This document shows positions 16,300 to 38,560 of a stretch of DNA of 64,000 nt, piece after piece. The first letter of the stretch is position 1. Every line of letters starts with the position of its first letter. The notes beneath the pieces are model-generated. The model was not told the DNA's origin, ran no database searches, and saw only the letters and a program-made list of their open reading frames with translations. The stretch comes from Sulfitobacter sp. W027 (GTDB taxonomy: Bacteria; Pseudomonadota; Alphaproteobacteria; Rhodobacterales; Rhodobacteraceae), in assembly GCF_025143985.1 (NCBI RefSeq), contig NZ_CP083564.1, positions 745,501 through 809,500 on the forward strand, given 5' to 3'. Both the position numbers and the translations under genes were made by a program.

Positions 16300-16940
16300 T
16301 CATCAGCCGAGGCCGCCGCTATATCTTCGTGCATATCCCCAAGACCGGGGGCACCTCGCTGGCGCTGGCGTTGGAGGGGCGGGCGATGAAGGATGACCTG
16401 ATGCTGGGGGATACGCCCAAGGCGCTGAAGCGGCGGCGGCGGTTGCAGGGGGCGCAGGCGGCGGGGCGGTTGTGGAAACATTCGACGCTGGCGGATGTGG
16501 ATGGGCTGGTCTCGGCGGAGGAATTGGGCGGGCTGTTCTGCTTCACACTGGTGCGCAATCCTTGGGACCGGGTGGCGAGCTATTATCGCTGGCTGCGTGG
16601 GCAGGGGTTTGCCCATCCGGCGGTGCATCTGGCCAAGGCGGAAAGTTTCGCGGGGTTCTTGCGGCACCCGCAGACGCAGACGAGTTTGCGGGCTTGGCCA
16701 GCGCGGCGGTATATGCAGGATGCCGCGGGTCGGGAGTGGTGCGATCTATATATCCGGTTGGAGCATTTCGCGGCGGATGCGCAGCCGTTGTTTGCGCATT
16801 TGGGGTTTGAATTAGAACTGCTGCAAGAGAACGTTTCGGCACAGGGCGGTGCGGACTATACACCAGAGTTGCGCGATATTGTGGCCCAGGTCTGCGCCGA
16901 GGACATCGCGCGTTTTGGCTACGCTGACGACGGCCCCTAG
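16296..16940 (+). CDS. Sulfotransferase family protein
   Basis: A 214-residue protein with the PAPS-binding motifs of sulfotransferases: FVHIPKTGGTS near residues 11-21 (5'-phosphosulfate loop) and LVRNPWDRVASYYRW (3'-phosphate loop, ~85-99). It would transfer sulfate from PAPS to a carbohydrate or other hydroxyl acceptor. GTG at 16296 is the start: GGAGG lies 7-11 bases upstream and the codon overlaps the transporter stop (GTGA). Its acceptor is unknown. Coupling to a DMT exporter hints at export of a sulfated or related small molecule, but this is inference only. The stop codon abuts the first palindromic element. Confidence 0.82.
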   Translation: MIISRGRRYIFVHIPKTGGTSLALALEGRAMKDDLMLGDTPKALKRRRRLQGAQAAGRLWKHSTLADVDGLVSAEELGGLFCFTLVRNPWDRVASYYRWLRGQGFAHPAVHLAKAESFAGFLRHPQTQTSLRAWPARRYMQDAAGREWCDLYIRLEHFAADAQPLFAHLGFELELLQENVSAQGGADYTPELRDIVAQVCAEDIARFGYADDGP

Positions 16941-17100
16941 GCCCGGAATGAAGCCGCAGGCGCCGGGCCATCGCCTGCCCGCCCCCCGGGTAGGCGATTT
17001 GGTGAGGCTGGATGGTACTTCGCGAGCGCACATCACAGCTGAGAGATAAAGTGGCAAAAGCCTACGTAGGATCGCCGACCCGCGGGCAGGCGATGACCCT
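16940..17100. repeat. Palindromic intergenic element, copy 1
   Basis: A 161-bp element directly after the sulfotransferase stop. It contains hairpin H1 (GGCCCGG ... CCGGGCC), hairpin H2 (ATCGCCTGCCCG 16970-16981 with CGGGTAGGCGAT 16987-16998, 12 pairs including one G-U), a 72-base spacer, and palindrome H3 (ATCGCCGACCCG 17071-17082, CGGGCAGGCGAT 17083-17094). The right arm of H3 is the exact reverse complement of the left arm of H2. Copy 2 (38399) matches it at 67 of the first 71 bases and 30 of the last 32, counted by eye. Not a family I can name. Confidence 0.85.
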
Positions 17101-17110
17101 TGCGGTCCCA

Positions 17111-17135
17111 ATAAAAAGGGGCGCCGAAGCGCCCC
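17111..17135 (-). terminator. Terminator of the beta-oxidation operon
   Basis: GGGGCGC (17118-17124) and GCGCCCC (17129-17135) close a TTCG tetraloop when read on the minus strand, followed by five T and AT. It lies 7 bases beyond the fadJ stop. Confidence 0.9.
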
Positions 17136-17141
17136 GATCTA

Positions 17142-19346
17142 TCATGCTGCCTTGCTGGCGTCCGGGTTGAACCGCCCGTAGAAAGTCTGGTTCTTCTGGG
17201 CCATCTCGCGCAGCAGGTCCGGGCAGGCGAAACGCTCGCCATACTTCTCGGTCAACTGGTCACACCGCTCCGCCGCATAGGGCGCGCCGATCATGTCGAG
17301 CCAGCTCAACGGGCCGCCGGACCAAGGCGCAAAGCCCCAGCCAAGGATCGCGCCCACGTCACCCTCGCGGATGTCCATCAGCACGCCTTCCTCCAGCGCT
17401 CGCACAGCTTCCAAAACCTGTGAGAAGAGCAACCGGTGCTGTACCTCGATCAACTCAGGCTGGTCCTCGGCCACGGGATACTTATCACCCATGCCCTTCC
17501 AAAGCCCCTCGCGCTTGCCCTTGGCGTCATAGCTGTAGAACCCGGCATTCGCCTTGCGGCCCAGACGTCCCTCTTTCTCCATCCAAAACACCAGCGGGTC
17601 GAGGTCGTCGTTCGGATAGGCATCGCCCATCGCCGCCTTGGTGGCGCGGGCAATCTTGGCACCGAGATCGATCGAGGTTTCATCCATCAACTGCAACGGC
17701 CCCAGCGGCATACCAACCAGCTTGGCCGCGTTCTCGATCAGCGCAGGCTCAACGCCCTCCTGCACCATCCGCACACCCTCGTTGATATAGGGAATGATAC
17801 AGCGGTTGGCATAGAAGAAGCGCGCGTCGTTGACCACGATCGGCGTCTTGCGGATCTGGCGCACGTAGTCGAGCGCCTTGGCCACGGCCCGGTCGCCGGT
17901 CTGCTGACCCTTGATGATCTCCACCAGCAGCATCTTCTCAACGGGCGAGAAGAAGTGGATGCCGATGAACTGCTCCTGACGGCTCGACGCCTTGGCCAAA
18001 TCGGTGATCGGCAGGGTCGAGGTGTTGGAGGCAAAGATGCAGTCCTCGGGGATCACCGCTTCGACCTTCTGGGTCATCTCGGCCTTGACCTTGGGGTCCT
18101 CAAACACCGCTTCGATAATCAGGTCACAGCCCTTCAACGCATCGAGATCGGTGGTCGCGGTGATGAGGTCCAGCGCCTTGGTCTTCTTCTCCTCGGTCGA
18201 TTTTTTGCGGGCGATGCCCTTGTCAAAATAGCTCGCGGAATAGGCTTTGCCTTTATCGGCCGCTTCCTGAGTTTGGTCGATCAGCACGACCTCAATGCCC
18301 GCCTGAACCGACACCAGCGTGATGCCAGCACCCATCATGCCTGCACCCAGAACGCCCAGCTTCTTGACGCGCTGGTCCGGCACACCCTCGGGCCGCACGG
18401 CACCCTTCTCAAGCGCTTCCTTGTTGAGGAAAAGCGAGCGGATCATATTGCCCGAGGAAGGGTTCATCAGCACATTGGTGAACCAGCGCGCCTCGATCTT
18501 CAGCGCCGTGTCGAAAGGCACCAGCGCGCCTTCGTAGACCGCCGACAAAAGCGCCTTGGCCGCCGGGTAGACGCCCTGGGTCTTGCCGTTGACCATCGCA
18601 TTCGCGCCGACGAAGGTCATAAAACCCGCTGGGTGATAGGGCGCGCCGCCGGGCATCTTGTAGCCCTTGGCATCCCAAGGCTTGACCAGATCGGCATCCT
18701 TGGCGTTCAGCACCCAGTCGCGGGCAGCGGCCATCGGGTCCTCGCTGACCTCATCAATGATCCCAGCCTTCACGGCGGCAGCAGGCGCAACCATCTTGCC
18801 TTCCAGCAAGAAAGGCGAGGCCGCCATGGCACCCAGCTTGCGCACCATCCGTGTGGTGCCGCCAGCACCTGGGAAAATGCCAACGAGGATCTCCGGCAGG
18901 CCAATCCGCGCCTTGGGATTGTCGGCAGCAAAGGTGCGATGCGTGGCCAGCGGCAGTTCCAGCCCGATGCCCGCAGCGGTGCCGGGGATCACACAGGCGA
19001 CGGGCTTGCCGCCCTTGTTGGTCTTGGGGTCCATGCCCGCGCGCTCGATCTTGCGCAGCAGGGCATGCATCTGCATCGTGCCCTCGAACAGGCCCTTGGC
19101 CGGATCGTCGCCCGCGTCGTCTTTCATCTTTGCCAGTAGGTTCAGGTCCATGCCGCCGGCAAAGGAGCCTTCCTTGCCGGAGGTGATGATGATGCCTTTG
19201 ACGGCCTCATCGGCCAGCGCATCGTCGATGTGCGTTTCCAGATCGCGCAGGCCCTCAAAGGACATCACGTTCATGCTCTTGCCCGGCACGTCCCATGTGA
19301 TGGTGGCGATGCCCTCGGCGTCTTTGTTCATAGTGAAATCGGTCAT
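17142..19346 (-). CDS. fadJ: Fatty acid oxidation multifunctional protein: enoyl-CoA hydratase / 3-hydroxyacyl-CoA dehydrogenase
   Basis: A 734-residue bifunctional enzyme. Residues 1 to ~300 are a crotonase domain with the oxyanion-hole segment SFAGGMDLNLL and the catalytic glutamates in GLELPLATH and GLPEILVG. The second half is 3-hydroxyacyl-CoA dehydrogenase with NAD-binding LGVLGAGMMGAGI and the catalytic histidine in GIHFFSPVEKM. It carries out steps two and three of beta-oxidation and partners the thiolase upstream as the alpha subunit. The ATG at 19346 follows GAGGGAGAG; an upstream in-frame TTG overlaps that ribosome-binding site and is rejected. Last gene of the MerR-headed operon. 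FadB versus FadJ naming is arbitrary here. Confidence 0.93.
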   Translation of the reverse strand: MTDFTMNKDAEGIATITWDVPGKSMNVMSFEGLRDLETHIDDALADEAVKGIIITSGKEGSFAGGMDLNLLAKMKDDAGDDPAKGLFEGTMQMHALLRKIERAGMDPKTNKGGKPVACVIPGTAAGIGLELPLATHRTFAADNPKARIGLPEILVGIFPGAGGTTRMVRKLGAMAASPFLLEGKMVAPAAAVKAGIIDEVSEDPMAAARDWVLNAKDADLVKPWDAKGYKMPGGAPYHPAGFMTFVGANAMVNGKTQGVYPAAKALLSAVYEGALVPFDTALKIEARWFTNVLMNPSSGNMIRSLFLNKEALEKGAVRPEGVPDQRVKKLGVLGAGMMGAGITLVSVQAGIEVVLIDQTQEAADKGKAYSASYFDKGIARKKSTEEKKTKALDLITATTDLDALKGCDLIIEAVFEDPKVKAEMTQKVEAVIPEDCIFASNTSTLPITDLAKASSRQEQFIGIHFFSPVEKMLLVEIIKGQQTGDRAVAKALDYVRQIRKTPIVVNDARFFYANRCIIPYINEGVRMVQEGVEPALIENAAKLVGMPLGPLQLMDETSIDLGAKIARATKAAMGDAYPNDDLDPLVFWMEKEGRLGRKANAGFYSYDAKGKREGLWKGMGDKYPVAEDQPELIEVQHRLLFSQVLEAVRALEEGVLMDIREGDVGAILGWGFAPWSGGPLSWLDMIGAPYAAERCDQLTEKYGERFACPDLLREMAQKNQTFYGRFNPDASKAA

Positions 19347-19366
19347 GTGTCTCTCCCTCAAATGGG

Positions 19367-19663
19367 TTAGGGGCGCTGAAACGTGTAGTCAGCGAATTTT
19401 TCTAGCAGCGTCTCGATCAAGGCCAGCGTGGCTTCGGGCCCCGCGTCACAGTCGTCTGCGCTGAGCAGGATGCGTTTGGACTGGCCAAAAGCTTCGCGGT
19501 CAAAGCTGTCGCTGGGATCGTCGCGGTGTTTGAAGAACAGAGCAGGATCGGTGCTATAGAGCCGCACATAATCGCCACCGCGTTCAACCTTGATCTGTAG
19601 ATCTGGCGTGCCACGGGCTGCGGCAAGCGCCGCAACCGCGTGGAAAGGATGGTCAGAGGCCAT
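19367..19663 (-). CDS. Small conserved protein of the beta-oxidation operon
   Basis: A 98-residue protein (MASDHPFHAV...) of unknown family, soluble, without signal peptide or membrane segment. A notable stretch is RILLSADDCDAGPEATLALI. Its ATG overlaps the fadA stop by one base (TGATG), and fadJ begins 20 bases after its stop, so it is locked inside the operon between the two subunits of the trifunctional complex. I cannot assign a role; position suggests something acting on, or made together with, the thiolase/hydratase complex. Confidence 0.75.
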   Translation of the reverse strand: MASDHPFHAVAALAAARGTPDLQIKVERGGDYVRLYSTDPALFFKHRDDPSDSFDREAFGQSKRILLSADDCDAGPEATLALIETLLEKFADYTFQRP

Positions 19664-20877
19664 CAGACGCGCTCGATGATCGTAGCAGCACCCATACCCG
19701 AGGCGATGCAAAGCGTGGCAAGGCCCACTTCCTTATCGGCCCGCTCCATCTCATCGAGCAGAATGCCGATGATCATGGCACCCGTGGCACCCAGCGGGTG
19801 GCCCATGGCGATGCCGCCGCCGTTCACGTTCACCTTGCTGTCGTCCACATCAAAGGCCTGCATGAAGCGCATGACCACAGCGGCAAAGGCTTCGTTGACC
19901 TCGAACAGATCAATGTCGCCGATGGTCATGCCGTTGTCTTTGAGGATTTTCTCGGTCACCGGCACCGGACCGGTCAGCATGATGGTGGGATCGGTGCCGA
20001 TCTTGGCCGTGGCGCGGATACGGGCGCGGGGCTTCAGCCCGTGCTGCTCGCCGAACTCCTTGTTGCCGATCAAGACAGCCGCGGCCCCGTCGACGATGCC
20101 AGACGAGTTGCCCGCGTGGTGAATGTGGTTGATCCGCTCCAGATGCGGGTATTTCATCAGCGCGATTTTATCAAAGCCGGGCATCACTTCACCCATCTGC
20201 TGGAACGCAGGGTTCAAGCCACCAAGGCTCTGCATATCGGTCTGTGGGCGCATGTATTCGTCACGATCCAGGATCGCGAGGCCGTTCTGATCACGCACGG
20301 TGATAACAGATTTGTCAAAGCGCCCCTCCTCCCAAGCCCGCGCCGCGCGCTGCTGGGATTGCATGGCCAGCTGGTCCGCGTCATCGCGGCTAAAGCCGTA
20401 TTCGGTAGCAATGATGTCCGCCGAAATACCCTGCGGGACGAAGTACTTTTCCATCGCCAGCGTCGGGTCCACGGCAATCGCAGCGCCATCGGCCCCCATC
20501 GCCACACGGCCCATCATCTCGACACCGCCGGCGATATAGCCATTGCCCGCGCCGCCTTTGACTTGGTTGGCGGCCAAGTTCACGGCCTCCATTCCGCTCG
20601 CACAGAAACGGTTGATCGCAAGGCCGGGGATGCGCTCGTCCAGGTCGGACGCCAGCACCGCCGAGCGCGCCAGACAGCCGCCCTGTTCCATGACTTGGGT
20701 CACGTTGCCCCAAATCACATCCTCAACGGCGTGACCTTCCAGATTGTTGCGCTCTTTCAGGGCATTCAGGGTCAATGCCGACAGCCGCAGCGAGGTGACC
20801 TCGTGCAAAGCGCCGTCCTTGCGGCCCTTGCCGCGGGGGGTGCGCAGGGCGTCGTAAATGTAAACGTCTTGGGTCAT
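19663..20877 (-). CDS. fadA: Acetyl-CoA C-acyltransferase (3-ketoacyl-CoA thiolase)
   Basis: A 404-residue thiolase carrying out the last step of beta-oxidation. The acyl-accepting cysteine is in NRFCASGMEAV (~residue 91), the histidine in NGGGIAMGHPLGATG and the second cysteine in LCIASGMGAA, so the active site is complete. I start at MTQDVYIYDALRTPRGK (20877): GAGGAC then sits 8 bases upstream, whereas the ATG two codons earlier would leave a 2-base spacing. It lies between GST and the 98-residue protein in the operon. Confidence 0.93.
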   Translation of the reverse strand: MTQDVYIYDALRTPRGKGRKDGALHEVTSLRLSALTLNALKERNNLEGHAVEDVIWGNVTQVMEQGGCLARSAVLASDLDERIPGLAINRFCASGMEAVNLAANQVKGGAGNGYIAGGVEMMGRVAMGADGAAIAVDPTLAMEKYFVPQGISADIIATEYGFSRDDADQLAMQSQQRAARAWEEGRFDKSVITVRDQNGLAILDRDEYMRPQTDMQSLGGLNPAFQQMGEVMPGFDKIALMKYPHLERINHIHHAGNSSGIVDGAAAVLIGNKEFGEQHGLKPRARIRATAKIGTDPTIMLTGPVPVTEKILKDNGMTIGDIDLFEVNEAFAAVVMRFMQAFDVDDSKVNVNGGGIAMGHPLGATGAMIIGILLDEMERADKEVGLATLCIASGMGAATIIERV

Positions 20878-20894
20878 GTTCATGTCCTCTGGGA

Positions 20895-21533
20895 TCAAGC
20901 GCGGTCAGCAGGGCTGCCGGGCATCAGGTCGTATGGGGCTTTCCAGCCCGGTGTTTCGCTCAGACGCGTGAGCCACGCGTCGATATGGGGCCAGTCGCTG
21001 CGGTCAAAGCCAAAGGGCTCGGGGTAATAGAGATACCCACAGCAGCTTAGGTCCGCGTTTGTAAGGTCGTCGCCCACAATCCAATCGCGGCTGTCGAGAT
21101 GGTTGTTCAGCACGGCGTAGGCCGCTTTGAGCCGGCCTTGGTTGAACCCAATGACTTCGGCGGGCCGTTTGTCTTCGGGCAAGAAGTTCATCAAGAAACG
21201 GGTCATCCCGGCAACGGAGCTGAGCTTGTGGTTATCCCATAGCACCCACCGCAGGATTTCACGGCGTTCCGTCGCGTCGCGGCCGCCGAATTTGCCTGAC
21301 TTTTCCGCCACGTAATCCTGAATGACACCCGATTGCGTGAGCCGCAGATCACCGTCGATCATCACCGGCGCTTCGCCCATATTGTTGATCTGTTCGCGGT
21401 AGTCCGGCTGCCGCGTCTGGCCGCCGAAGAAGTCGACCTTCACCGGCTCCCAGTCCAGACCCGAAAGTTCAAGCGCAAGCGCCGCCTTATAGGCGTTGCC
21501 GGATTCGCCAAAGCAATAAAGTTGAATGGTCAC
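20895..21533 (-). CDS. Glutathione S-transferase family protein
   Basis: A 212-residue protein with an N-terminal thioredoxin-like domain (IQLYCFGESGNAYKAALAL) containing the cis-proline segment EAPVMIDGDLRLTQS, and an all-helical C-terminal domain ending with NADLSCCGYLYY. It would conjugate or reduce a substrate with glutathione, perhaps an aldehyde or peroxide formed during lipid catabolism. The start is GTG at 21533, with AGGAGGAG 8 bases upstream. Only 17 bases separate its stop from the fadA start, so it is in the operon. Serine in the GESGNAYK position is the likely thiolate-stabilising residue. Confidence 0.88.
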   Translation of the reverse strand: MTIQLYCFGESGNAYKAALALELSGLDWEPVKVDFFGGQTRQPDYREQINNMGEAPVMIDGDLRLTQSGVIQDYVAEKSGKFGGRDATERREILRWVLWDNHKLSSVAGMTRFLMNFLPEDKRPAEVIGFNQGRLKAAYAVLNNHLDSRDWIVGDDLTNADLSCCGYLYYPEPFGFDRSDWPHIDAWLTRLSETPGWKAPYDLMPGSPADRA

Positions 21534-21579
21534 GTGTCACTCCTCCTCAAATGTCATCGCCCGCTGCACCTTCGGACGG

Positions 21580-21637
21580 TATTTGTAAAAGGATGAAGGG
21601 GGGCAGAGTGGGCCTTATCTTCATCCTTTCTTAAATA
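21580..21637. repeat. 19-bp inverted repeat inside the beta-oxidation operon
   Basis: TATTTGTAAAAGGATGAAG (21580-21598) and CTTCATCCTTTCTTAAATA (21619-21637) are inverted repeats matching at 17 of 19 positions with a 20-base loop. It sits between the acyl-CoA dehydrogenase stop and the GST start. No T tract follows directly; it may be a processing or stability hairpin separating the two halves of the operon. Confidence 0.65.
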
Positions 21638-21668
21638 CCTCTGCGCTGCGCTTTCGGCACGCGCGCGG

Positions 21669-22817
21669 TCAAAGGCTGCGCGCGATCAGTTCCTTCATGA
21701 TTTCATTGGTGCCACCATAGATCCGTTGCACCCGCGCGTCGGCCCACATTTCACCGACGGCATATTCTTGCATGAAGCCGTAGCCGCCGTGCAGTTGCAA
21801 ACAGGCATCGAGCACTTCGCCTTGGGTGTCGGTGAGCCAGTATTTCTGCATCGCGGCCTTATCGACGGTCAACTCGCCGCGCAGGTGCTCGCTGATGCAT
21901 TCGTCGAGGAAGGCGCGGGACACGGCGGTTTTGGTTTTCACTTCGGCCAGTTGGAAGCGGGTGTTTTGGAACTGGGTGAGCGGGCCGCCGAAGGCTTCGC
22001 GTTCCTTGCAATAGGCCACGGTGCGCGCCACGGCGCCTTCCATCGCGCCGACTGCGCCGCAGCCGATGATGAGGCGCTCTTGGGGAAGTTGCTGCATCAT
22101 TTGGTAGAAGCCTTGGCCTTCGTCTTGGCCGAGGACGTTTTCGGGCGGGATTTCGACGTTGTCGAAGAAGAGCTCCGAAGTGTCGGCGGCGTGCAGGCCG
22201 ATTTTGTCAAGGTTGCGGCCGCGTTGGAAACCTTGGGCGCCGTCCGTTTCCACCACGACAAGGGAGACGCCTTTGGAGCCTTCCTTGGGGTCGGTCTTGG
22301 CGGCGACGATGATCAGGTTGGCGTGCTGGCCGTTGGTGATGAAGGTCTTTTGGCCCGATAGCTTATAGGCGTTGCCGTCGCGGATCGCCTTGGTTTTGAT
22401 CCGCTGCACGTCCGAGCCGGTGGAGGGTTCGGTCATCGCCAGTGCGCCGACCAGCTCGCCCGACACCATCTTGGGCAGCCAGCGTTTCTTCTGGTCTTCG
22501 GTGCCGTAGGCGAGGATGTAATGCGCGACGATGCCGGAGTGGATGCCGTGGCCCCAGGACGCGAGATTGGCGCGGGAGCCTTCGATCAAGATCGCGGCCT
22601 CGTGGCCGAAATCGCCGCCGGCGCCGCCGTATTCTTCGGGCACCGAGGGGCAGAGCAGGCCGAGCTCACCGGCTTGCGCCCATGTCTCGCGGTCCATCTG
22701 GCCCTGCTTGCGCCATTTCTCGAACTTGGGCGCCCATTCGGTGTTGATGAACTGCGCCGTCATGTCGGCGATCATCTGGTGTTCGTCGGTCATCCATGTG
22801 GATGTTTTGTTCTGCAT
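21669..22817 (-). CDS. Acyl-CoA dehydrogenase (LCAD/isovaleryl-CoA dehydrogenase-type active site)
   Basis: A 382-residue flavoenzyme introducing the 2,3 double bond in acyl-CoA, passing electrons to ETF. Signatures are [12 protein letters not shown] (~126-135) and [12 protein letters not shown] near the C-terminus. The usual C-terminal catalytic YEGT reads YGGT, and instead a glutamate (E247) occupies LPQERLII, the position used by long-chain and isovaleryl-CoA dehydrogenases. So chemistry should be intact with the alternative base. Second acyl-CoA dehydrogenase of the operon; chain-length preference is unknown. Confidence 0.9.
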
Positions 22818-22840
22818 TATCTGGCCCCCTCCCCAAGGGT

Positions 22841-23053
22841 TCAGCGTTTGCGGCTTTCCAGTTCGGCGTTGAACAGGCGCAGCCGCGCGGTCAGGTTTTC
22901 TTCGTTCATGACCGAGTTGAAATTCTCGAACAGGAACGACAGTGCTTCGCCTTCATCAAGACCGGCATCCGTGCTGAACTTCTTGAGCCTGCGGTAGCCC
23001 TCTTCGGTCATGGCGACGGGAAAGCGGCGGGTCAGGCGGAAGCGTTTGGGCAT
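22841..23053 (-). CDS. Small basic protein between two acyl-CoA dehydrogenase genes
   Basis: A 70-residue protein beginning [19 protein letters not shown] and ending in a charged helix ([16 protein letters not shown]). The pattern, a short beta-like segment rich in Arg followed by two helices ([28 protein letters not shown]), is reminiscent of ribbon-helix-helix DNA-binding proteins, but I cannot confirm the fold. CGGAGAG precedes the ATG at 23053; an upstream GTG frame is rejected because it would cover that site. It is 50 bases from one neighbour and 23 from the other, clearly in the operon. Confidence 0.75.
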
Positions 23054-23103
23054 GGTCTCTCCGGGTGTTGGGCAGGGTGGGGGACAGGCCCCCACCACCC
23101 GTT

Positions 23104-24885
23104 TTAGAAGTTTGCGGCCTCCAATGCCATGACCGTGTCCGCGCCGGATTGGATGCGGGTCAGGTGCAGGGCCGTGGCGGGCAGCTGCCGTGCCATATAG
23201 TAGCGCCCGGTGGCGAGCTTGGTCTCGTAGAACGCGGCGTCACCGCTGCCGTTCTTCAAGGCTTCTTTTGCCGCCAGACCCATTTTGGCCCACATCAGGC
23301 CAAGGCAGACATGGCCGAACATATGCATGAAGTCATTCGACCCTGCGAGCGCGTGGTTGGGGTTCTTCATGCCGTTTTGCATGAAGTACATGCCCGCTGA
23401 TTGCAGGTCCTTGCTGGCTGCTTTCAGCGGGTCGAGGAAGGCCGCGTCGAACTCGGCGTCTTGGCCCGCGTTCTCCTTGATGAAGCCTTTGACCAGATCG
23501 AAGAAGGCCATGACGTGTTTGCCGCCGTCTTGCGCCAGTTTGCGGCCCACGAGGTCGAGCGCCTGCACACCGTTAGCGCCTTCGTAGATCTGGGCGATCC
23601 GGGCGTCGCGGGTGAATTGGGACATGCCCCATTCTTCGATATAGCCGTGGCCGCCATAGACCTGCTGGGCCTTCACGGTCATGTCGTAGCCTTGGTCGGT
23701 CAGGAAGCCTTTGATGACCGGGGTCAGCAGCGACACAAGGCCGTCGGCGTCCTTGTCGTCGGCGCGGTGGGCGGCGTCGATCATCGTCGCACCCCAAAGG
23801 ATGAAGGCGCGGGCGGCTTCGACAAAGCTTTTCTGATCCATCAGCGAGCGGCGGATGTCGGGGTGCACGATCAGCGGGTCAGCCGCTTTTTCGGGCGCCA
23901 CGGCACCGGTCACGGCGCGGCCTTGCAGGCGATCGTTGGCGTAGATCACGGCGTTTTGGTAGGCGACTTCGGCCTGTGCTAGGCCCTGCATGCCAACGCC
24001 GACGCGGGCTTCGTTCATCATGGTGAACATGGCGCGCATGCCCTTATGCTCGGTGCCCAGCAGATAGCCGGTGGCGCCGTCGTAGTTCATCACGCAGGTG
24101 GAGTTGCCGTGGATGCCCATCTTCTCTTCGATGGAGCCGACGGAGACGCCGTTGCGCTCACCCAAGGAACCGTCTTCGTTCACCATGAACTTGGGCACGA
24201 TGAAGAGCGACACGCCTTTGATGCCTTCGGGGCCGCCTTCGATCTTGGCCAGCACCAGATGGATGATGTTGTCTGCCATGTCATGTTCACCGGAGGAGAT
24301 GAAAATTTTCTGGCCGGAGATTTTGTAGCTGCCGTCGTCTTGTGGGGCCGCTTTGGTGCGCATCAGGCCCAGATCGGTGCCGCAATGCGGCTCGGTCAGG
24401 TTCATGGTGCCGGTCCATTCGCAGGAGACCATCTTGGGTAGGTAGGTGTCCTTCTGCGCGTCAGTGCCATGGGCAAGGATCGCCGAGGCCGCGCCATGCG
24501 TCAGACCTTGGTACATGGTGAAGGCTTGGTTCGCCGCCGAGAACATTTCGCCCACGGCGGTGCCGAGGACATAGGGCATGTTTTGCCCGCCGTATTCTTC
24601 GGGCATATCAAGACCGGTCCAGCCGCCTTCTTTCACCTTTTCAAAGGCTTCCTTGAACCCCTTGGGCGTATAGACAACGCCATTCTCCAGACGGCAGCCT
24701 TCCTTGTCGCCCACGGCATTGAGCGGGGCGAGGACTTCGGAGGTCAGTTTGCCTGCTTCTTCAAGGATGGCGGCGGTGAAGTCAGGCTCCAGCTCATCAT
24801 AGCCGGGAGTCTTGCTTTCGGTCACCTTCAGCACGTCGTGCAGAACGAATTGCAGGTCTTTGGTGGGGGCTGTGTAGCTGGGCAT
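23104..24885 (-). CDS. Acyl-CoA dehydrogenase with C-terminal extension (DmdC-like)
   Basis: A 593-residue member of the long acyl-CoA dehydrogenase group to which the 3-methylmercaptopropionyl-CoA dehydrogenase DmdC of Roseobacters belongs. [13 protein letters not shown] (161-173) and [14 protein letters not shown] (189-202) are diagnostic, and the catalytic glutamate falls at E435 in [12 protein letters not shown], the same number as I recall for the structurally studied DmdC. The extra ~150 residues at the C-terminus are typical. Because Roseobacters carry several paralogues and no dmdB/dmdD lies nearby, I call it a general acyl-CoA dehydrogenase of the fatty-acid operon rather than DmdC itself. 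It follows the MerR gene by 56 bases. Confidence 0.85.
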
Positions 24886-24941
24886 CTATGCTCTCCGGGT
24901 GGTCTTTTTTTGAAAATGGGCACGGCGCGGGGCCGCTTAGG

Positions 24942-25343: not shown

Positions 25344-25409
25344 TTCATCACTCTCCGATCGTCGTTTCGAGACTTCAGGTGGGGACTGGCATGGCTGATA
25401 CAACAGAAG

Positions 25410-30825: not shown

Positions 30826-31172
30826 GCGCTTGCTTCGCCCAGACCGGCAGGAAACTCATGCGTGCCATCCACCAAGGGCAGGGGCTGCGCCCAGACCACG
30901 TCTTCGAGTTTCAGCTGGCGATAGAGATGCGGAAACAGTGCACCCCCGCGCGAGGGTTCCCATTTCAGCGCATCGCCCAGCGTTTCGGCCTCGACGGCGA
31001 GCAGGAACAGCCCCTCGACCCCGGCGAAATGTTTGGCGGCAGTCTCTTGGGCCTGTTCGGCGGTGGAGAAATGCACATAGCCATCGGTCACATCAATCGG
31101 TGCCCCATCAGTGGCTCCGTTCTTGCGCAGCGCCGCCCATTCGTCGGCGCGGAATATCTTGAAAATCAGCAT
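30822..31172 (-). CDS. DUF952 domain protein
   Basis: A 116-residue cytoplasmic protein of the DUF952 family: [10 protein letters not shown] start, [15 protein letters not shown] (conserved His-Phe-Ser), and [13 protein letters not shown] near the C-terminus. Function unknown; the fold is related to ADP-ribosyl-processing enzymes in some classifications, which I cannot verify here. It starts the operon with pyrD and is divergent from the 5'-nucleotidase gene across 129 bases. Confidence 0.85.
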
Positions 31173-31301
31173 AACTTCTGATGCCCGCCGGGCGGGGCGG
31201 GGTCAAGACCCACAGGTGACCATAGGGCAGGCGACATGGCCTTTGACACGGGCCGAACCCCACGCCACGATACCGGCATAATAACCAACAGGGGAACTAT
31301 C

Positions 31302-32858
31302 ATGAAACGATTCCTGACCGCGACCGCAGCGCTGGCTTTGACCAGTGGCATGGCGGCGGCTGAGTATAACCTCACCATTTTGCACACCAATGATTTCCAC
31401 GCTCGGTTTGAGCCGATCAGCAAATATGACGGTCCTTGCGGTGCCGAAGACAATACCGCTGGCGAATGTTTCGGCGGTTCTGCCCGTCTGATGACGGCGA
31501 TCGCCGAGGCGCGCGAACGGGCGGGCAACAGCATCCTTGTGGATGGCGGTGACCAGTTTCAGGGCACGCTGTTTTACACCCAGTACAAGGGTACACTCGC
31601 CGCTGAGATGATGAACCAGATGGGCTATGACGCGATGACCGTGGGCAACCATGAATTCGACGATGGCCCCGAAGTGCTGCGCGGCTTTATGGATGCAGTG
31701 GAATTTCCGGTGCTTATGTCCAACGCCGATGTCTCGGGCGAACCGCTTCTGGCCGATAAGCTGGCCAAATCCACCGTGATCGAGAAGGGGGGCGAGAAAA
31801 TCGGCCTGATTGGCCTGACCCCGGAAGATACTCACGAACTCGCCAGCCCCGGCGACAAGATCACCTTTTCTGATCCGGTCGCAGCGGTGCAGGGGGAGGT
31901 CGATAAACTGACCGCCGAAGGTGTCAATAAGATCATCGTGCTCAGCCACTCGGGCTATGGCGTCGACCAAAAGGTTGCGGCAGAAACAACGGGCGTCGAT
32001 GTGATCGTGGGCGGCCATACCAACACACTGCTCAGCAACACGGATGAGCGCGCGGAGGGCCCCTATCCGACGATGGTGGGTGAGACCGCGATCGTGCAGG
32101 CCTATGCCTACGGCAAATTCTTGGGTGAGCTGAATGTGACCTTCGATGATGAGGGTAATATCACCAAGGCCGAGGGCGAGCCGCTGATCATGGACGCAGC
32201 CGTGACCGAGGATCAGCCCACCGTTGACCGTATCGCCGAAGCCGCCAAACCGCTTGAGGAAATTCGCAATCGCGTCGTCGCTGAAACCGCCGAGGCGATT
32301 GATGGTGAACGCGGCAACTGCCGCGCACAGGAATGCTCAATGGGCAACCTTGTGGCTGATGCGATGCTCGACCGGGTGAAGGATCAGGGCATCGACGTGG
32401 CGATTGCCAATTCGGGCGGGCTGCGTGCCTCCATCGACGCGGGTGAGGTGACCATGGGCGAAGTCCTCACCGTGCTGCCGTTCCAAAACACGCTATCGAC
32501 CTTCCAGGTCACAGGGGCGCAACTGATCGAGGCGTTGGAGAACGGCGTGAGCCAGCATGAAGAGGGGGCCGGCCGTTTCCCGCAAGTGGCGGGCATGTCC
32601 TTTGCCTTTGACCCCAAGGCCGAAGCCGGCAGCCGGATCAGCGATGTGATGGTGGCAGGTGAGCCGATTGACCTTGAAAAGACTTATGGCGCCGTCTCAA
32701 ACAACTACGTTCGCAACGGCGGCGATGGCTACGCGATGTTCAAAGATGCCGCTAATGCCTATGACTATGGCCCCGATCTGGCGGATGTCACGGCTGAGTA
32801 TCTGGCCAAGGATGGCACCTATAAGCCCTATACCGACGGTCGTATCACCATGAAGTAA
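31302..32858 (+). CDS. Periplasmic 5'-nucleotidase / 2',3'-cyclic phosphodiesterase family protein
   Basis: A 518-residue exported enzyme. Signal peptide MKRFLTATAALALTSGMAAA is followed by a metallophosphatase domain (ILHTNDFHARFEP, VDGGDQFQGT, VGNHEFDDGP, SHSGYG, GGHTNT) and a C-terminal 5'-nucleotidase domain (SMGNLVADAM, NSGGLRASIDAG, FPQVAGMSF). It liberates phosphate and nucleosides from external nucleotides; the salvage operon at 7.3 kb could use these. AGGGG precedes the ATG at 31302. Upstream in-frame codons are not plausible because they precede the signal peptide. Monocistronic with a terminator. Confidence 0.93.
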   Translation: MKRFLTATAALALTSGMAAAEYNLTILHTNDFHARFEPISKYDGPCGAEDNTAGECFGGSARLMTAIAEARERAGNSILVDGGDQFQGTLFYTQYKGTLAAEMMNQMGYDAMTVGNHEFDDGPEVLRGFMDAVEFPVLMSNADVSGEPLLADKLAKSTVIEKGGEKIGLIGLTPEDTHELASPGDKITFSDPVAAVQGEVDKLTAEGVNKIIVLSHSGYGVDQKVAAETTGVDVIVGGHTNTLLSNTDERAEGPYPTMVGETAIVQAYAYGKFLGELNVTFDDEGNITKAEGEPLIMDAAVTEDQPTVDRIAEAAKPLEEIRNRVVAETAEAIDGERGNCRAQECSMGNLVADAMLDRVKDQGIDVAIANSGGLRASIDAGEVTMGEVLTVLPFQNTLSTFQVTGAQLIEALENGVSQHEEGAGRFPQVAGMSFAFDPKAEAGSRISDVMVAGEPIDLEKTYGAVSNNYVRNGGDGYAMFKDAANAYDYGPDLADVTAEYLAKDGTYKPYTDGRITMK

Positions 32859-32880
32859 CGATAGGTTACGACCTGATCGG

Positions 32881-32918
32881 AAAGGGCGCGTCCTGCAAGG
32901 GGCGCGCCCTTTTGTTTT
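32881..32918 (+). terminator. Terminator of the 5'-nucleotidase gene
   Basis: AAAGGGCGCG (32881-32890) pairs with CGCGCCCTTT (32903-32912), followed by TGTTTT. It starts 23 bases after the stop. Confidence 0.85.
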
Positions 32919-32999
32919 GGTGATCCGAGAGGAACGTAGCACCCTTGCACCTTACACCGGGCAGGCTACACAGGGCAGCAGATAGATAGGAGACGACCC

Positions 33000-33413
33000 A
33001 TGCTCACCCCCTTTCACCTTGCCTATAACGTCCGCGACCTTGATGAGACCCGTGCCTTTTATGGCGATGTGCTGGGCTGCACCGAGGGCCGCTCGACCGA
33101 GACTTGGGTCGATTATTCCTTTTTCGGCCACCAAATCTCGATGCATCTGGGGGAGCCTTTTGCCACACAGGCAACCGGAAAAGTGGGCGAGCATATGGTG
33201 CCGATGCCGCATCTGGGCGTGGTCTTGCAGATGGACGATTGGAAGGCGCTTGCCGAACGGCTGAAGGGCTCAGAGGTCGATTTCGTGATCGAGCCTTCGC
33301 TGCGTTTCGAGGGAGAGCCCGGCGAGCAGGCAACGATGTTTTTCCGCGATCCCTCGGGCAACCCGATTGAGGTCAAGGGCTTTGCCGATATGGAGCGCGT
33401 CTTTGCCCAATAG
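33000..33413 (+). CDS. VOC-superfamily (glyoxalase/dioxygenase-like) protein
   Basis: A 137-residue single-domain VOC protein: FHLAYNVRDLDETRAFY at the N-terminus supplies the first metal-ligand histidine (His6), ISMHLGEPF and the C-terminal FRDPSGNPIEVKGF the others (the glutamate of NPIEVKG). Two beta-alpha-beta-beta-beta modules fit the length. Such proteins are metal-dependent lyases, isomerases or dioxygenases; the substrate is unknown. The ATG at 33000 has GGAGACGACCC upstream. Confidence 0.83.
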   Translation: MLTPFHLAYNVRDLDETRAFYGDVLGCTEGRSTETWVDYSFFGHQISMHLGEPFATQATGKVGEHMVPMPHLGVVLQMDDWKALAERLKGSEVDFVIEPSLRFEGEPGEQATMFFRDPSGNPIEVKGFADMERVFAQ

Positions 33414-33419
33414 GGCCGC

Positions 33420-33465
33420 ATCTTAAAACCCTAAAGCCCCGCAGTAGAGTGCAGGGCTTTAGGGT
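33420..33465 (-). terminator. Terminator of the cupredoxin-like gene
   Basis: ACCCTAAAGCCC (33428-33439) and GGGCTTTAGGGT (33454-33465) form a perfect 12-bp stem. On the minus strand it is followed by TTTTAAGAT. It lies 17 bases past the stop at 33482 and could also stop plus-strand transcription from the VOC gene. Confidence 0.8.
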
Positions 33466-33481
33466 GTCTAAGGCCTATGCG

Positions 33482-33829
33482 TTACTGCGTGACAGGCACG
33501 TCGAAACTGATAAAGCCTTCAAAAACGGGCTCTTCCATGGTTTGCCCGCTGAAGCTCGTGGGGGTCTCTGCGGTGATGTCGAGCGTATAGCTGCCGTTCA
33601 CGGGGATCGCGCCGCTGGTCCAAGCCTCCCCCTCGCCGGTGACCGTATGGCTGCCGGTGGCATTATTGGTAAAGATCACCTGATCGCCCGGCTGCACATG
33701 CGACTGCGAAGGGAAATAGGCGCCGTCAACGATCAGCACATTGCGGGTTTCGGCGAGCGCGCCGGAGACCGCGAAAACGCTCATGGCAAGGGCCAGAGCG
33801 CCAGCGCTTTTGCGGTATGAAGTTAGCAT
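33482..33829 (-). CDS. Exported cupredoxin-like protein without a full copper site
   Basis: A 115-residue protein with a Sec signal peptide (about 26 residues, cleavage after ALA) and an ~89-residue beta-rich mature part. DGAYFPSQSHVQPGDQVIFTN followed by GSHTVTGEG mirrors the start of small cupredoxins (ligand His in SHTV). However there is no cysteine and no C-terminal Cys-X-His-X-Met loop, so a blue-copper centre cannot form. It may be a scaffold-only relative or use a different metal set. AAAGGAG lies 6 bases before the second of two adjacent ATGs, which I choose. Monocistronic, divergent from nothing close (LysR gene lies 90 bases upstream, same strand). Confidence 0.7.
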   Translation of the reverse strand: MLTSYRKSAGALALAMSVFAVSGALAETRNVLIVDGAYFPSQSHVQPGDQVIFTNNATGSHTVTGEGEAWTSGAIPVNGSYTLDITAETPTSFSGQTMEEPVFEGFISFDVPVTQ

Positions 33830-33919
33830 CATCTGCTCCTTTAGATTGCCCCGATGCGGGCGGATTGGCTGGTGTTGTACAGGGTGAATGCGGCATAACT
33901 TTGGCCGCTATGGACTGGT

Positions 33920-34819
33920 TCAATCGGTCGCCACCGGCTCCGCCTGCTGCGCGAGCCAGCCGCGAAAGGACGCGAGCGCTGCGGTTTCGTCCCGGTCTTC
34001 TGGCCAGACGAGGTAGTAATTGCCGATGCTTTGGGTGGTCTGTGAGGCCGCCAGCACTAATTGCCCATCGCGCAGATAGGGGCGGGCGAAAAAGGTCGGC
34101 AGCAATGCCACGCCCAACCCGTGGATCGCCGCCTGCGCCATGGTCGAGAATTGGTCGAACATCATGCCGCCCGGCGGCTCTTCGGTCACGCTTAGCGACG
34201 ACAGCCACCGCGCCCATCCGCGCGGGCGGGTCTCCAGATGCAGCAGCGGCAGGTGCCGCACATCGCGCGCGTCTTCCAACGGTTCGGCCAGCAGGTCAGG
34301 CGCACAGACCGCCACGACCGTTTCAGGCAGCAGCGGCAGGTAGCGCACGCCGGGCCAGTCTTCATGACCAAAATGAATGGCGGCGTCAAAGCGGCTGCCC
34401 GCAAAGGCAAAGGGGTGCAGCCGGGTCGAAAGGTTCACCGTCACCTCAGGATGCGCGCGCGCGAAATCGCGCAGCCGAGGCGCGAGCCAATGCATTCCGA
34501 AAGCGGGGAGGATCGCCAGATCTAGCGTGCCGCCGGTAGGGTTGGTCCGGGCCGAGACCGAGGCCTGGGCCAAACGGTTCAGGATATCGCGCACCTGCGT
34601 CACATAGTCCAAACCCGCTTGGGTCGGGGTCAGCCGTCGCCCTTGCCGGATCATCAGCGACACGCCCAGTTGCTCTTCGAGCGTCTTGATCTGGCGGCTT
34701 ACCGCGCTCTGCGTCAGGTTCAATTCCTGCGCCGCCGCCGTGGCGGTGCCAAGCCTTGTGACCGCCTCAAACGACAGCAAGGCTGAGATCGAGGGCAAGA
34801 AACGACGCGGCGCAATCAT
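33920..34819 (-). CDS. LysR-family regulator adjacent to gcdH
   Basis: A 299-residue LysR protein: HTH at ~10-65 (ALLSFEAVTRLGTATAAAQELNLTQ split over the recognition helix, QSAVSRQIKTLEEQLGV) and a type-2 periplasmic-binding-like effector domain. The N-terminus RRFLPSISALLSFEAV places it in the GcvA-like subgroup. I choose ATG 34819; an ATG 15 bases upstream would put the dyad ATGAG-N5-CTCAT inside the gene, while this start places it as an operator just upstream. Divergent from gcdH, so it is the likely glutarate/lysine-catabolism regulator (GcdR analogue). Confidence 0.85.
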   Translation of the reverse strand: MIAPRRFLPSISALLSFEAVTRLGTATAAAQELNLTQSAVSRQIKTLEEQLGVSLMIRQGRRLTPTQAGLDYVTQVRDILNRLAQASVSARTNPTGGTLDLAILPAFGMHWLAPRLRDFARAHPEVTVNLSTRLHPFAFAGSRFDAAIHFGHEDWPGVRYLPLLPETVVAVCAPDLLAEPLEDARDVRHLPLLHLETRPRGWARWLSSLSVTEEPPGGMMFDQFSTMAQAAIHGLGVALLPTFFARPYLRDGQLVLAASQTTQSIGNYYLVWPEDRDETAALASFRGWLAQQAEPVATD

Positions 34820-34834
34820 ATGAGTTTTTCTCAT
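34820..34834. promoter_or_regulatory. LysR-type T-N11-A operator candidate
   Basis: ATGAGTTTTTCTCAT is a perfect 5-5-5 dyad that contains T-N11-A (TGAG...CTCA). It touches the LysR start codon and lies 83 bases upstream of the gcdH ATG, the usual place for an autoregulatory and activating LysR site. Confidence 0.55.
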
Positions 34835-34916
34835 GAACACAGGACAAAGCAGCGATAGAGTTCCCCGGCGCAATTTGCAATACTGCGCCAAATCACATCA
34901 CCCGAAAGGATGCCTC

Positions 34917-36140
34917 ATGACTGCCGAAGCCCCCAAGCTGCGCGCCAAAGACAAACCCGATCTTGGAACCTTTGACTGGACCGACCCCTTCCGCCTCGAC
35001 AGCCAGCTGACCGAAGACGAACGCATGATCCGCGATTCTGCCCACGCCTATGCGCAAGAAAAACTACAGCCCCGCGTCATCGACGCCTTCGCCAATGAAG
35101 AAACCGACGCAGGCATCTTCCGCGAGATGGGCGATATGGGCCTTCTGGGCGTCACCATCCCCGAGGAATACGGCGGCTTGGGCGGCAACTATGTCTCCTA
35201 CGGACTGGTTGCGCGTGAAGTGGAGCGGGTCGACAGTGGCTACCGTTCGATGATGTCGGTACAGGCGAGCCTCGTCATGTATCCGATCTATGCCTACGGC
35301 TCCGAAGAGCAGCGTCAGAAGTACCTGCCGAAACTTTGCTCGGGCGAATGGATTGGCTGCTTTGGCCTGACCGAGCCTGATGCGGGTTCTGACCCTGCCG
35401 GCATGAAAACCCGCGCAGTGAAGACCGAGAACGGCTATAAGCTGACCGGCTCCAAGATGTGGATCTCGAACTCCCCCATCGCCGATGTTTTCGTAGTCTG
35501 GGCCAAGTCCGAAGCGCATGACGGCAAGATCCGTGGCTTCGTGCTGGAAAAAGGCATGAAGGGTCTGAGCGCGCCGAAGATCGGCAACAAGCTGTCTTTG
35601 CGGGCCTCCATCACCGGTGAAATCGTCATGGACGGTGTCGAAGTCGGTGAAGACGCGTTGCTGCCAAATGTGCAGGGTCTGAAAGGGCCGTTCGGCTGTC
35701 TGAACCGTGCGCGCTACGGTATCTCTTGGGGTGCGATGGGCGCCGCCGAATTCTGCTGGCACGCCTCGCGCCAATACGGTTTGGACCGCAAGCAGTTCAA
35801 CAAGCCGCTGGCGCAGACTCAATTGTTCCAGAAGAAACTGGCCGACATGATGACCGAAATCTCGCTGGGCCTGCAAGGCTCGCTGCAAGTAGGTCGTCTG
35901 ATGGATGCCGCCAATGCCGCGCCTGAGATGATCTCGATCGTCAAGCGTAACAACTGCGGCAAGGCGCTGGACGTGGCGCGCATGTCGCGGGACATGCATG
36001 GCGGCAACGGTATTTCCGGTGAATTCCAAGTGATCCGCCACATGATGAACCTTGAGACGGTGAATACCTATGAAGGCACCCATGACGTCCACGCGCTGAT
36101 CCTGGGCCGTGCCCAGACCGGCCTGCAGGCGTTCTTTTAA
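34917..36140 (+). CDS. gcdH: Glutaryl-CoA dehydrogenase
   Basis: A 407-residue flavoenzyme that oxidises and decarboxylates glutaryl-CoA to crotonyl-CoA in lysine, hydroxylysine and tryptophan catabolism. The match to the mitochondrial enzyme is close throughout: [10 protein letters not shown] (Arg110, the residue that recognises the gamma-carboxylate), [12 protein letters not shown] and the catalytic glutamate in [12 protein letters not shown] (E386). GAAAGGA sits 8 bases upstream of the ATG at 34917. Divergent LysR regulator upstream; the fused E1 gene follows by 73 bases and could be co-transcribed. Confidence 0.97.
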
Positions 36141-36213
36141 GAAACGGTTTGGGGGGATCACCTCCCCCCAACGCGCCTCCCTTGAGGCAAAATTTCAAAT
36201 ACCAAGAGGCCCC

Positions 36214-38388
36214 ATGGACCGCGTTGCAATCGTTCATGAGAACTTCCTCCGTCGCGTTGCGGCGGGGGATTTTCCCGTTTCCACCTCTGATGAAAAGGCG
36301 CTTGATCGTGCCGAGTTAGAGCAGCTGTACCGCGCACAAGTGCTGAGCCGCGCACTCGATTTGCAAAGCCGTGTCATGCAGAAAGAAGGGCAGGGGTTTT
36401 ATACCATCGGCTCGTCGGGCCATGAAGGCATGGCGGCAGTGGCGGCAGCGCTGCGCGTCGATGACATCGCGTTTTTGCACTACCGCGATGCGGCGTTCCA
36501 GATCGCCCGGGCCGATCAGGCCGAAGGGCAGGACATGCTGCGCGATATGCTCCTGAGTTTCGCTTGCTCTGCCGACGATCCGATCAGCGGCGGGCGGCAC
36601 AAAGTGCTGGGCTCGCGCCCGCTGATGATCCCGCCGCAAACCTCAACCATCGCCAGCCACCTACCCAAGGCCGTGGGGGCCGCGCATTCCATCGGCATGG
36701 CGCGGCGCAACCGGCCTGAGCATGCGATCTTGCCGCGCGATGCGATTGCCATGTGCAGTTTTGGCGATGCCTCGGCCAACCACTCCACTGCCCAAGGCGC
36801 GATCAATGCGGCTTGCTGGACCGCGGTGCAGGGCGTGCCGCTGCCGCTGCTTTTCGTCTGTGAGGACAATGGCATCGGAATTTCGACCAAGACACCGACG
36901 GGATGGATCAAGGCCTCCATGTCTGCCCGACCGGGCTTGAAGTATTTCGAGGGCGACGGGCTGGACCTTCATGCGGCTTTCTCGGCAGCAAAAGAGGCGG
37001 CGGATTATGTTCGGGTCCACCGTAAGCCCGCCTTCCTGCATCTGCGCACCGTGCGGCTCTATGGTCATGCGGGGGCGGATGTGGCGACGTCCTATCTGCC
37101 GCGTGCAGAGGTTGAGGCTGATGAGGCGAATGATCCGCTGCTGCATTCCGCGCGGCTGTTGGTGGAGGCTGGAATGAACGCCGATGAGGCGCTGGCGATT
37201 TACCGCGATACGCAGGACGCGGTGGCCAAGGCTGCGGAGGAAGTGGTGAAACGGCCTCGGCTCAAGACAGCGTCGGACGTAATGGCAAGCCTTGTGCCGC
37301 CCAAGCGTAATTGCGCGTCCAGCAACGGGCCGAGTGCCGAGGTCCGTGCCGAGACATTCGGCAGCGATATGGCGCAGATGGACAACCCACAGCCGATGTC
37401 GCGGCTGATCAACTGGGCGCTGCACGACCTGATGCTGGCGCATCCTGAGACCATGCTGATGGGCGAGGATGTGGGCCGCAAGGGCGGGGTCTATGGCGTT
37501 ACACAGAAGTTGCAGGGCCGGTTCGGGCCGGGGCGTGTGATCGACACGCTGTTGGATGAACAGAGCATCCTGGGTCTCGCCATCGGTATGGCGCATAACG
37601 GTTTCGTGCCGATGCCTGAGATCCAGTTCCTCGCCTATCTGCACAACGCCGAAGACCAGTTGCGCGGCGAAGCGGCGTCGTTGCCCTTCTTCTCGGACGG
37701 GCAATGGACCAATCCGATGGTGCTGCGCATCGCAGGGCTGGGCTATCAGAAGGGCTTTGGCGGGCATTTTCACAATGACAATTCGCTGGCCGTGTTGCGT
37801 GACATTCCGGGGATCATCATTGCTTGCCCCTCGGCGGGGGATGATGCGGCGATGATGTTGCGCGAAGCGCACCGTTTGGCGCGTGAGGAACAGCGGGTGG
37901 TGGTCTTTATCGAGCCGATTGCACTTTATCCGATGCGCGATCTGGTGGATGCCGGAGATGGCGGCTGGATGCGGCACTACCCGGCGCCGGATCGGCGGAT
38001 TGGCCTGGGCGAGGTTGGTGTCTCGGGCAAGGGCGCGGATTTGGCGATCGTAAGCTATGGCAACGGGCATTACCTCAGCCAGCAGGCGGCGCGGGATCTG
38101 GCGGAGGCGGGCGTGGATGCGCGGGTGATTGATCTGCGCTGGTTAGCGCCGTTGCCGGAAGCAGCGTTGATGGAGGCAATTGGGGATCGGCCTGTGTTGA
38201 TCGTTGATGAATGTCGCCGCACAGGTGGGCAGGCCGAGGGGCTGATGGCGCTGATGGCGGAGCAGGGCGTTGAGCGCTTTGCGCGGCTGACGGCGGAGGA
38301 CAGCTTTATCGCGACGGGTCCGGCCTATGCGGCGACGCTGCCCTCGCGGGAGGGGATCGTGGCGGCGGCGCGGGATTTGCTTGGGTAA
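36214..38388 (+). CDS. 2-Oxoacid dehydrogenase E1, fused alpha and beta subunits
   Basis: A 724-residue TPP enzyme. The N-terminal ~330 residues are E1-alpha (substrate loop SSGHEGMAAVAAAL, TPP site GDASANHSTAQGAIN...EDN), followed by a ~60-residue linker and E1-beta plus transketolase C-domain (MGEDVGRKGGVYG, PEIQFLAY, GFGGHFHNDNS, VIDLRWLAPL). It would decarboxylate a branched-chain or long 2-oxoacid and load an E2 lipoyl arm. No E2 or E3 gene is adjacent, so it must borrow them from elsewhere. Neighbouring gcdH invites 2-oxoadipate as substrate; branched-chain acids are equally possible. AAGAGG lies before the ATG at 36214. It ends 10 bases before the second palindromic element. Confidence 0.85.
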   Translation: MDRVAIVHENFLRRVAAGDFPVSTSDEKALDRAELEQLYRAQVLSRALDLQSRVMQKEGQGFYTIGSSGHEGMAAVAAALRVDDIAFLHYRDAAFQIARADQAEGQDMLRDMLLSFACSADDPISGGRHKVLGSRPLMIPPQTSTIASHLPKAVGAAHSIGMARRNRPEHAILPRDAIAMCSFGDASANHSTAQGAINAACWTAVQGVPLPLLFVCEDNGIGISTKTPTGWIKASMSARPGLKYFEGDGLDLHAAFSAAKEAADYVRVHRKPAFLHLRTVRLYGHAGADVATSYLPRAEVEADEANDPLLHSARLLVEAGMNADEALAIYRDTQDAVAKAAEEVVKRPRLKTASDVMASLVPPKRNCASSNGPSAEVRAETFGSDMAQMDNPQPMSRLINWALHDLMLAHPETMLMGEDVGRKGGVYGVTQKLQGRFGPGRVIDTLLDEQSILGLAIGMAHNGFVPMPEIQFLAYLHNAEDQLRGEAASLPFFSDGQWTNPMVLRIAGLGYQKGFGGHFHNDNSLAVLRDIPGIIIACPSAGDDAAMMLREAHRLAREEQRVVVFIEPIALYPMRDLVDAGDGGWMRHYPAPDRRIGLGEVGVSGKGADLAIVSYGNGHYLSQQAARDLAEAGVDARVIDLRWLAPLPEAALMEAIGDRPVLIVDECRRTGGQAEGLMALMAEQGVERFARLTAEDSFIATGPAYAATLPSREGIVAAARDLLG

Positions 38389-38398
38389 AAGGAGCGCA

Positions 38399-38560
38399 GG
38401 CCCGGAAGCAAGCCGCAGGCGCCGGGCTATCGCCTGCCCGCCCCCCGGGTAGGCGATTGGGTGAGGCTGGGTGCAACTCTGCGAAGGCACACCTTGGTTG
38501 AACCATAAAGTGGCAAGGGTCACCGTCGGGATCGCCGACCCGCGGGCAGGCGCTGGCCCT
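38399..38560. repeat. Palindromic intergenic element, copy 2
   Basis: A 162-bp relative of the element at 16940, in the same orientation. H1 is GGCCCGG...CCGGGC, H2 is 38429-38440 with 38446-38457, H3 is 38531-38542 with 38543-38554. It fills the gap between two convergent genes and its last two bases overlap the stop codon of the enolase-superfamily gene. The spacer has diverged from copy 1 except for islands such as ATAAAGTGGCAA. Confidence 0.85.

Follow-up and report, generated by a model that had tools for sequence, protein, structure and literature searches.

A probably mobile, REPIN/BIME-like family of folding intergenic repeats in Sulfitobacter and other Rhodobacteraceae

A stretch of 64,000 nucleotides from Sulfitobacter sp. 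W027 (assembly GCF_025143985.1, contig NZ_CP083564.1, positions 745,501 to 809,500; the window in what follows) carries three copies of a palindromic intergenic element of about 160 bp. These copies probably belong to a family of non-autonomous mobile hairpin repeats, REPIN/BIME-like and moved in trans. The evidence comes from a compensatory fold, from the number and spread of the copies, and from the way in which sister genomes differ at the sites that they share.

The first-pass annotation of the window, made from the letters alone, had described two look-alike copies, and both are present; a covariance model adds a third.

16940..17100, plus strand: element copy 1, 161 bp, short-arm type (model match 16941-17101, 143 bits, E 3e-27)
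38399..38560, plus strand: element copy 2, 162 bp, short-arm type (model match 38400-38561, 141.4 bits, E 6.4e-27)
55382..55544, plus strand: element copy 3, older-looking type (covariance model, 93.1 bits, E 2.8e-17)

Searching the whole genome with copy 1 recovers copy 2 at E 5.7e-41, far past chance, and brings up many further copies, all of them on the largest contig. The counts made by eye in the first-pass annotation are exact (67 of the first 71 bases and 30 of the last 32 match between copies 1 and 2), and its sketch of the architecture, with a GCCCGG-stem hairpin, a ATCGCCTGCCCG/CGGGTAGGCGAT hairpin and a right arm reverse-complementary to the first, is found in all its parts; conserved ends around a variable middle are likewise borne out. 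Its two copies, real as they are, were too few: there are three in the window and 33 places in the genome. The right end of copy 3 is GCCCGGCTC, with the same reading in other genera.

From its left end the element starts with a hairpin, H1. Arms a1 and a2' follow, separated by a short loop, and beyond a variable middle, in which ATAAAGTGGCA is conserved, come arms a3 and a4'. The parts of H1 are, in turn, GCCCGG, AATCAA, GCC, GCA, GGC, G and CCGGGC. The corresponding features of copy 1, and the arms of copy 2, are placed as follows.

16941..16968, plus strand: H1, with outer stem GCCCGG/CCGGGC, internal loop and inner stem GCC/GGC
16970..16981, plus strand: arm a1, whose long-distance partner is a4' (17083-17094)
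16982..16986, plus strand: short loop, the place of a side arm of about 46 bp in other copies
16987..16998, plus strand: arm a2', partner of a3 in the long-range fold or of a1 locally
17046..17056, plus strand: conserved, mostly unpaired ATAAAGTGGCA block of the middle, its ATAAA nearly invariant in 60 sequences
17071..17082, plus strand: arm a3
17083..17094, plus strand: arm a4'
38429-38440, 38446-38457, 38531-38542 and 38543-38554, plus strand: arms a1, a2', a3 and a4' of copy 2

Elements come in two length types, of about 160 bp or, with the side arm of about 46 bp in the a1/a2' loop, of about 207 bp. The side arm, itself made of two small hairpins, is a module of the element, because in 229 kb of loci 67 occurrences of its motif lie within elements and the two outside them both adjoin a truncated copy; the same count rejects an independent nested repeat. 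The motif is absent from the window. At one shared site the side arm is present in genomes G000 and G003 and not in G024, though the middles agree.

The fold was assessed on an alignment (A1) of 60 rows, comprising 55 sequences from 50 other genera and five Sulfitobacter copies; five of the 60 other-genera loci (L298, L315, L329, L337 and L345) were omitted as second, partial or broken copies, and a further alignment (A2), with more rows omitted, holds 58 in all. Covariation is strong. In the long-range fold 90.2% of cells are paired in the 60 sequences and 16 of the 33 pairs show double-sided changes; its covariation score is 0.219, against 0.062 (standard deviation 0.005) for shuffled alignments, none of 500 shuffles scoring as high, and slid versions of the fold give 0.014-0.037. 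The local two-hairpin fold is weaker (85.3% paired, covariation 0.170), and the a3:a4' local hairpin pairs in 72.2% of cells compared with 94.3% for the long-range outer stem. Part of the covariation is compatible with both folds, as in a four-way T-A/G-C exchange that runs through all four arms. The unpaired motifs AATCAA and ATAAA are conserved. Six short-type copies, folded singly, have energies of -84 to -93 kcal/mol; RNAalifold, applied to the set from the genus, produced no useful consensus. A compensated stem of ATCGACAGACCG with CGGTCTGTCGAT recurs in nine of 11 copies inspected in one genome, as is expected if few active copies were the ancestors. On the strand as drawn, G.U and A.C appositions number 2 and 12 in the outer stem and 8 and 8 in H1 among the 60 family sequences; within the genus the outer stem (A1 columns 50-61 with 172-183) has 32 A.C against 13 G.U. 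The A.C excess in the outer stem may be a faint hint that the other strand is the folded one.

Run over the whole genome, the covariance model returns 43 matches at E <= 0.1, ten of them antisense echoes of the palindrome; there are at least 33 places, all on the largest contig, from a list that is possibly incomplete because the best 150 of 4723 candidates were scored. That contig makes up 81% of the genome, and the chance of finding all 33 places on it is 0.001 if they were evenly placed. Of the 23 genome copies in the first alignment, 20 are complete or almost so, and the remainder are short or decayed. The model also matches 25 of 27 chosen genomes (picked from earlier matches and near relatives) at E <= 1e-4, with 17 to 46 matches per genome in the six close Sulfitobacter genomes and elsewhere up to 108, the most that the scoring allowed, so that the element is far from single-copy elsewhere. 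More widely, a set of 394 genomes of the family, one per genus, has matches in at least 55, the best two candidates being scored in each. Most BLAST matches in the family are limited to the left third of the element; the profile matches all 60 loci from 54 other genera, 58 of them extending to model position 151 or beyond out of 184. A first search of the genus matched 12 of 35 relatives, with 13 of 60 tallied and the source genome listed besides.

With few candidates scored per genome, no match was found in 24 genomes of other families, and in a class sample of 289 genomes the four that match all lie within the family. (NCBI assigns Sulfitobacter to the Roseobacteraceae.) In an exact scan with 31 letters the named carriers are Sulfitobacter species; partial plasmid matches occur in Salipiger and Leisingera. 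Head-to-tail runs of two or three copies are found, one of three in Sulfitobacter delicatus and others in S. maritimus (L247, L232, L284 and L267), and neighbours in such runs rank among the most alike pairs. Two loci in genome G062 (L211 and L212, at C2:208139 and 9305) are 1.56-kb stretches with one element each and flanks 99.9% alike on a 215-kb contig; either the segment is truly duplicated or the assembly overlaps itself there. By eye, copies in two other genera seem to resemble one another past the modelled ends (flanks of L434-L453), and the full element may be longer there than modelled.

Six sister genomes (G000, G003, G009, G024, G026 and G062) were compared at shared sites with both flanks matched. 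At 23 such sites the length type varies at 16 and the orientation at five; the table of sites omits the G007 row of site V and the second, opposite element of site T, and counts one element for each tandem locus at sites G and H. The site behind priA holds the older type in G000 and G009 and the newer type, inverted, in G003, G024 and G026; in G062 both stand side by side, again with the newer one inverted. This site is filled in all six genomes and has no model match in ten others. At the second site of the window the element is inverted in G009 and G062, and G003, G024 and G026 retain an apparent remnant, which the model detects in one of the three. Another shared site retains the remnant end of an opposite element; we read this and the double occupancy in G062 as states of transition.

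Filled and empty sites also exist on a plasmid. Three S. faviae strains carry a copy between an ABC-transporter gene and dctP, in flanks that are approximately 95-97% alike; over 160-161 positions the element of strain OXR-9 shows 23 and 26 differences from those of the other strains, which differ from each other at 3. The same gene pair lacks the element in S. dubius DSM 109990 and Sulfitobacter sp. DSM 110093; two further species have a parA-like gene in that spacer (L432 and L433, 1075-1714). Among 137 pairs of elements at the same site, 14 are at least 93% alike, eight fall at 85-93% and 115 below 85%, with flanks of about 89-93% in all of these groups. Identity alone is nevertheless no proof of replacement, because the median for same-site pairs is 76.2 and that for different-site pairs 72.8, and the argument from same-site identity is withdrawn in part, as true orthologues may have drifted. 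Flips, double occupancy and remnants are better evidence of replacement.

Copies lie mostly behind genes. Those of the genus comprise 53 in convergent, 53 in co-directional and five in divergent settings (111 classed), and those of other genera 16, 15 and three (34 classed); copies without genes on both sides, 12 of 123 in the genus and 26 of 60 in other genera, are excluded from the counts. The source genome alone has 11, 10 and two (23 copies), and the gene pairs of the window, as a baseline, number 11 convergent, 33 co-directional and 12 divergent. Relative to co-directional genes the element faces either way about equally often (29 same and 24 opposite in the genus, seven and eight in other genera). 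With the origin assumed at base 1, no replication-strand bias is apparent by eye, which is not counted as a result.

The first-pass annotation placed both of its copies at convergent gene ends touching stop codons. This is true of those two; as a general picture it fails already in the window, where copy 3 lies between the co-directional priA (stop at 55346) and a gene of the MFS. Copy 1 overlaps the TAG stop codon (16938-16940) of an open reading frame (ORF) ending at 16940, which has no Pfam match and which we take to resemble a sulfotransferase. On its other side it faces a 3-hydroxyacyl-CoA dehydrogenase gene, with that gene's own terminator-like hairpin in between.

17113..17135, minus strand: terminator-like hairpin, separate from the element, that belongs to the adjoining minus-strand gene; seen directly

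This hairpin is retained in the five other genomes compared at the site, whichever element is present. Copy 2 overlaps the stop (38559-38561) of a minus-strand enolase-superfamily ORF, its other neighbour being a dehydrogenase E1/transketolase-type ORF; the ORFs flanking each of these two copies are convergent. Elsewhere in the window there is a match to the Guanidine-II riboswitch (49393-49440, minus strand, 37.8 bits, gathering score 32).

Several origins can be set aside. Segmental duplication is rejected by the 23 copies compared with their flanks (alignments of 215 bases or more), among which no listed alignment between loci is longer than 225 bases, the extent of the element itself; the flanks share nothing outside it, and the copies do not trace to one duplicated segment. 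One candidate autonomous parent, a 4.2-kb pair of end-like matches in the genome, consists of a remnant with ordinary genes next to it. Carriage by phage finds no match in 50,697 phage records, nor does a 24-letter pattern have an exact match in viral contigs. The source genome has no Y1 transposase, and 22 of 24 carrier genomes have no Y1 domain over the cut-off. The first-pass annotation recognised no named family, and we have done no better: neither in the window nor in 20 further loci does the element reach the gathering score of any Rfam family (other rows being weak and at chance level), and the open full-text literature, a search that did not extend to subscription papers and preprints, yielded no published description.

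A number of points weigh against reading the family as mobile. No movement has been observed and no enzyme found, and a Y1 domain does exceed the cut-off in two of the 24 carriers, with a weak one in a third. Amplification in the source genome is old, because the best identity among the 23 copies first compared is 84%, with no near-identical pair. Orientation is constant at 18 of the 23 shared sites; some of what looks like replacement may be true orthologues diverging slowly, and the 14 of 137 same-site pairs that are at least 93% alike, in flanks of about 90-93%, could reflect host constraint or exchange between species. The p-values for gene context are too small, because copies at shared sites are not independent, and the home-made gene caller behind the context counts overlooked some genes. 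Relatedness among the sequences, finally, persists in the shuffle controls of the fold.

The first-pass annotation wavered between a mobile miniature element and a structured RNA end. As a mobile element the family has many copies, conserved ends and filled and empty sites; target duplication is not seen, flanking repeats of k = 2-9 being no more frequent than in shuffles in any of these lengths (82 copies). A structured RNA in message 3' ends, serving stability, processing or termination and spread by its benefit to the host, would account for the covarying fold and for the excess of copies behind genes, and ERIC in Yersinia sets a precedent, being reported to influence the expression of neighbouring genes via RNA hairpins (PMC2267715). 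It is nonetheless disfavoured, and we think it unlikely, because orientation relative to genes is mixed (29:24 and 7:8 along co-directional genes) and separate intrinsic-terminator-like hairpins adjoin copies. Sister species, moreover, show opposite orientations behind the same gene, with flips at five of 23 sites, G.U does not exceed A.C on the drawn strand in either stem, and Rfam has no match. A host DNA-architecture site for gyrase, a nucleoid protein or a repair factor, kept for chromosome organisation as has been suggested for BIMEs, would make sense of the conserved unpaired AATCAA and ATAAA, of the symmetrical use of both orientations and of the confinement to the main contig. We judge it improbable: plasmid copies exist, positions vary between species, and the element is dispensable in the 22 of 35 same-genus relatives that had no match in one search.

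Two kinds of transposition by a known enzyme have lower standing still. The inverted hairpins around a spacer, the lack of target duplication, the tandem BIME-like runs and the Y1 domains of two carriers would all suit a strict REPIN, moved by a RAYT (a Y1 transposase) that most carriers have lost or that acts from a different replicon, but with 22 of 24 carriers lacking Y1 over the cut-off, and with a conserved stem that is the long-range one and not two local hairpins, there is little to recommend it. A classical miniature inverted-repeat transposable element of a DDE transposase would also be short, non-coding and present in many copies with inverted-repeat ends. A DDE enzyme acts on duplex ends and needs no fold, however, and here the element covaries as a fold, its repeats are not terminal (H1 lies outside them) and no target is duplicated; this last alternative we regard as very improbable indeed.

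For a REPIN/BIME-like repeat moved in trans, the following course of events can be envisaged. A folded single strand, a DNA hairpin perhaps exposed in replication, would be recognised by an enzyme supplied in trans. New copies would be inserted without duplicating the target, often at or beside an old copy, which would then be lost, so that the outcome would look like replacement or inversion in place. Survival behind genes would reflect selection against insertions in promoters and genes. A bolder proposal, which we entertain as a tentative possibility, is that of a family-wide repeat copying itself via its folded single strand with non-Y1 machinery, homing on its own older copies behind genes and replacing or inverting them in place, with selection acting on the element, not on the host, to preserve its single fold through compensatory changes in about fifty genera. 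If this were true, sites would stay fixed while their occupants turn over.

How does the element compare with known repeats? Like REPINs and BIMEs it places inverted hairpins around a spacer (a1/a2' and a3/a4', though a3:a4' pairs in just 72.2% of cells), is intergenic, forms tandem runs, leaves no target duplication and has many copies. It differs from the RAYT-served systems in that nearly all carriers lack a resident Y1 over the cut-off, and from REPINs and BIMEs generally in its length of about 160 bp with the extra hairpin H1, in the conservation of its long-range stem, and in keeping one fold across the 50 other genera of the alignment. ERIC and YPAL of enterobacteria and Yersinia are likewise intergenic, folding, about 127-169 bp long and without a known enzyme; by description their sequence and fold are different and they belong to another branch of the phylum, and it is the present element that gains or loses a 46-bp side arm at one loop. 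With the candidate structured RNAs in Rfam it shares covariation and conserved unpaired motifs, and it differs from them in being orientation-neutral and without a match at gathering score.

We accordingly rate the element as an addition to a known kind, the intergenic palindromic repeats. What gives it interest is that genomes of a large, well-sequenced marine family harbour, by the tens, a repeat that strictly preserves its fold and seemingly has neither a name nor a known enzyme. Two questions find a natural test in it: how short repeats spread in genomes that have no REP transposase of their own, and whether fixed sites acquire changing, flipping occupants by self-targeted insertion or by recombination. 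For annotation there is a more immediate benefit, in that intergenic conservation at the sites of the element would otherwise be taken for regulatory RNA.

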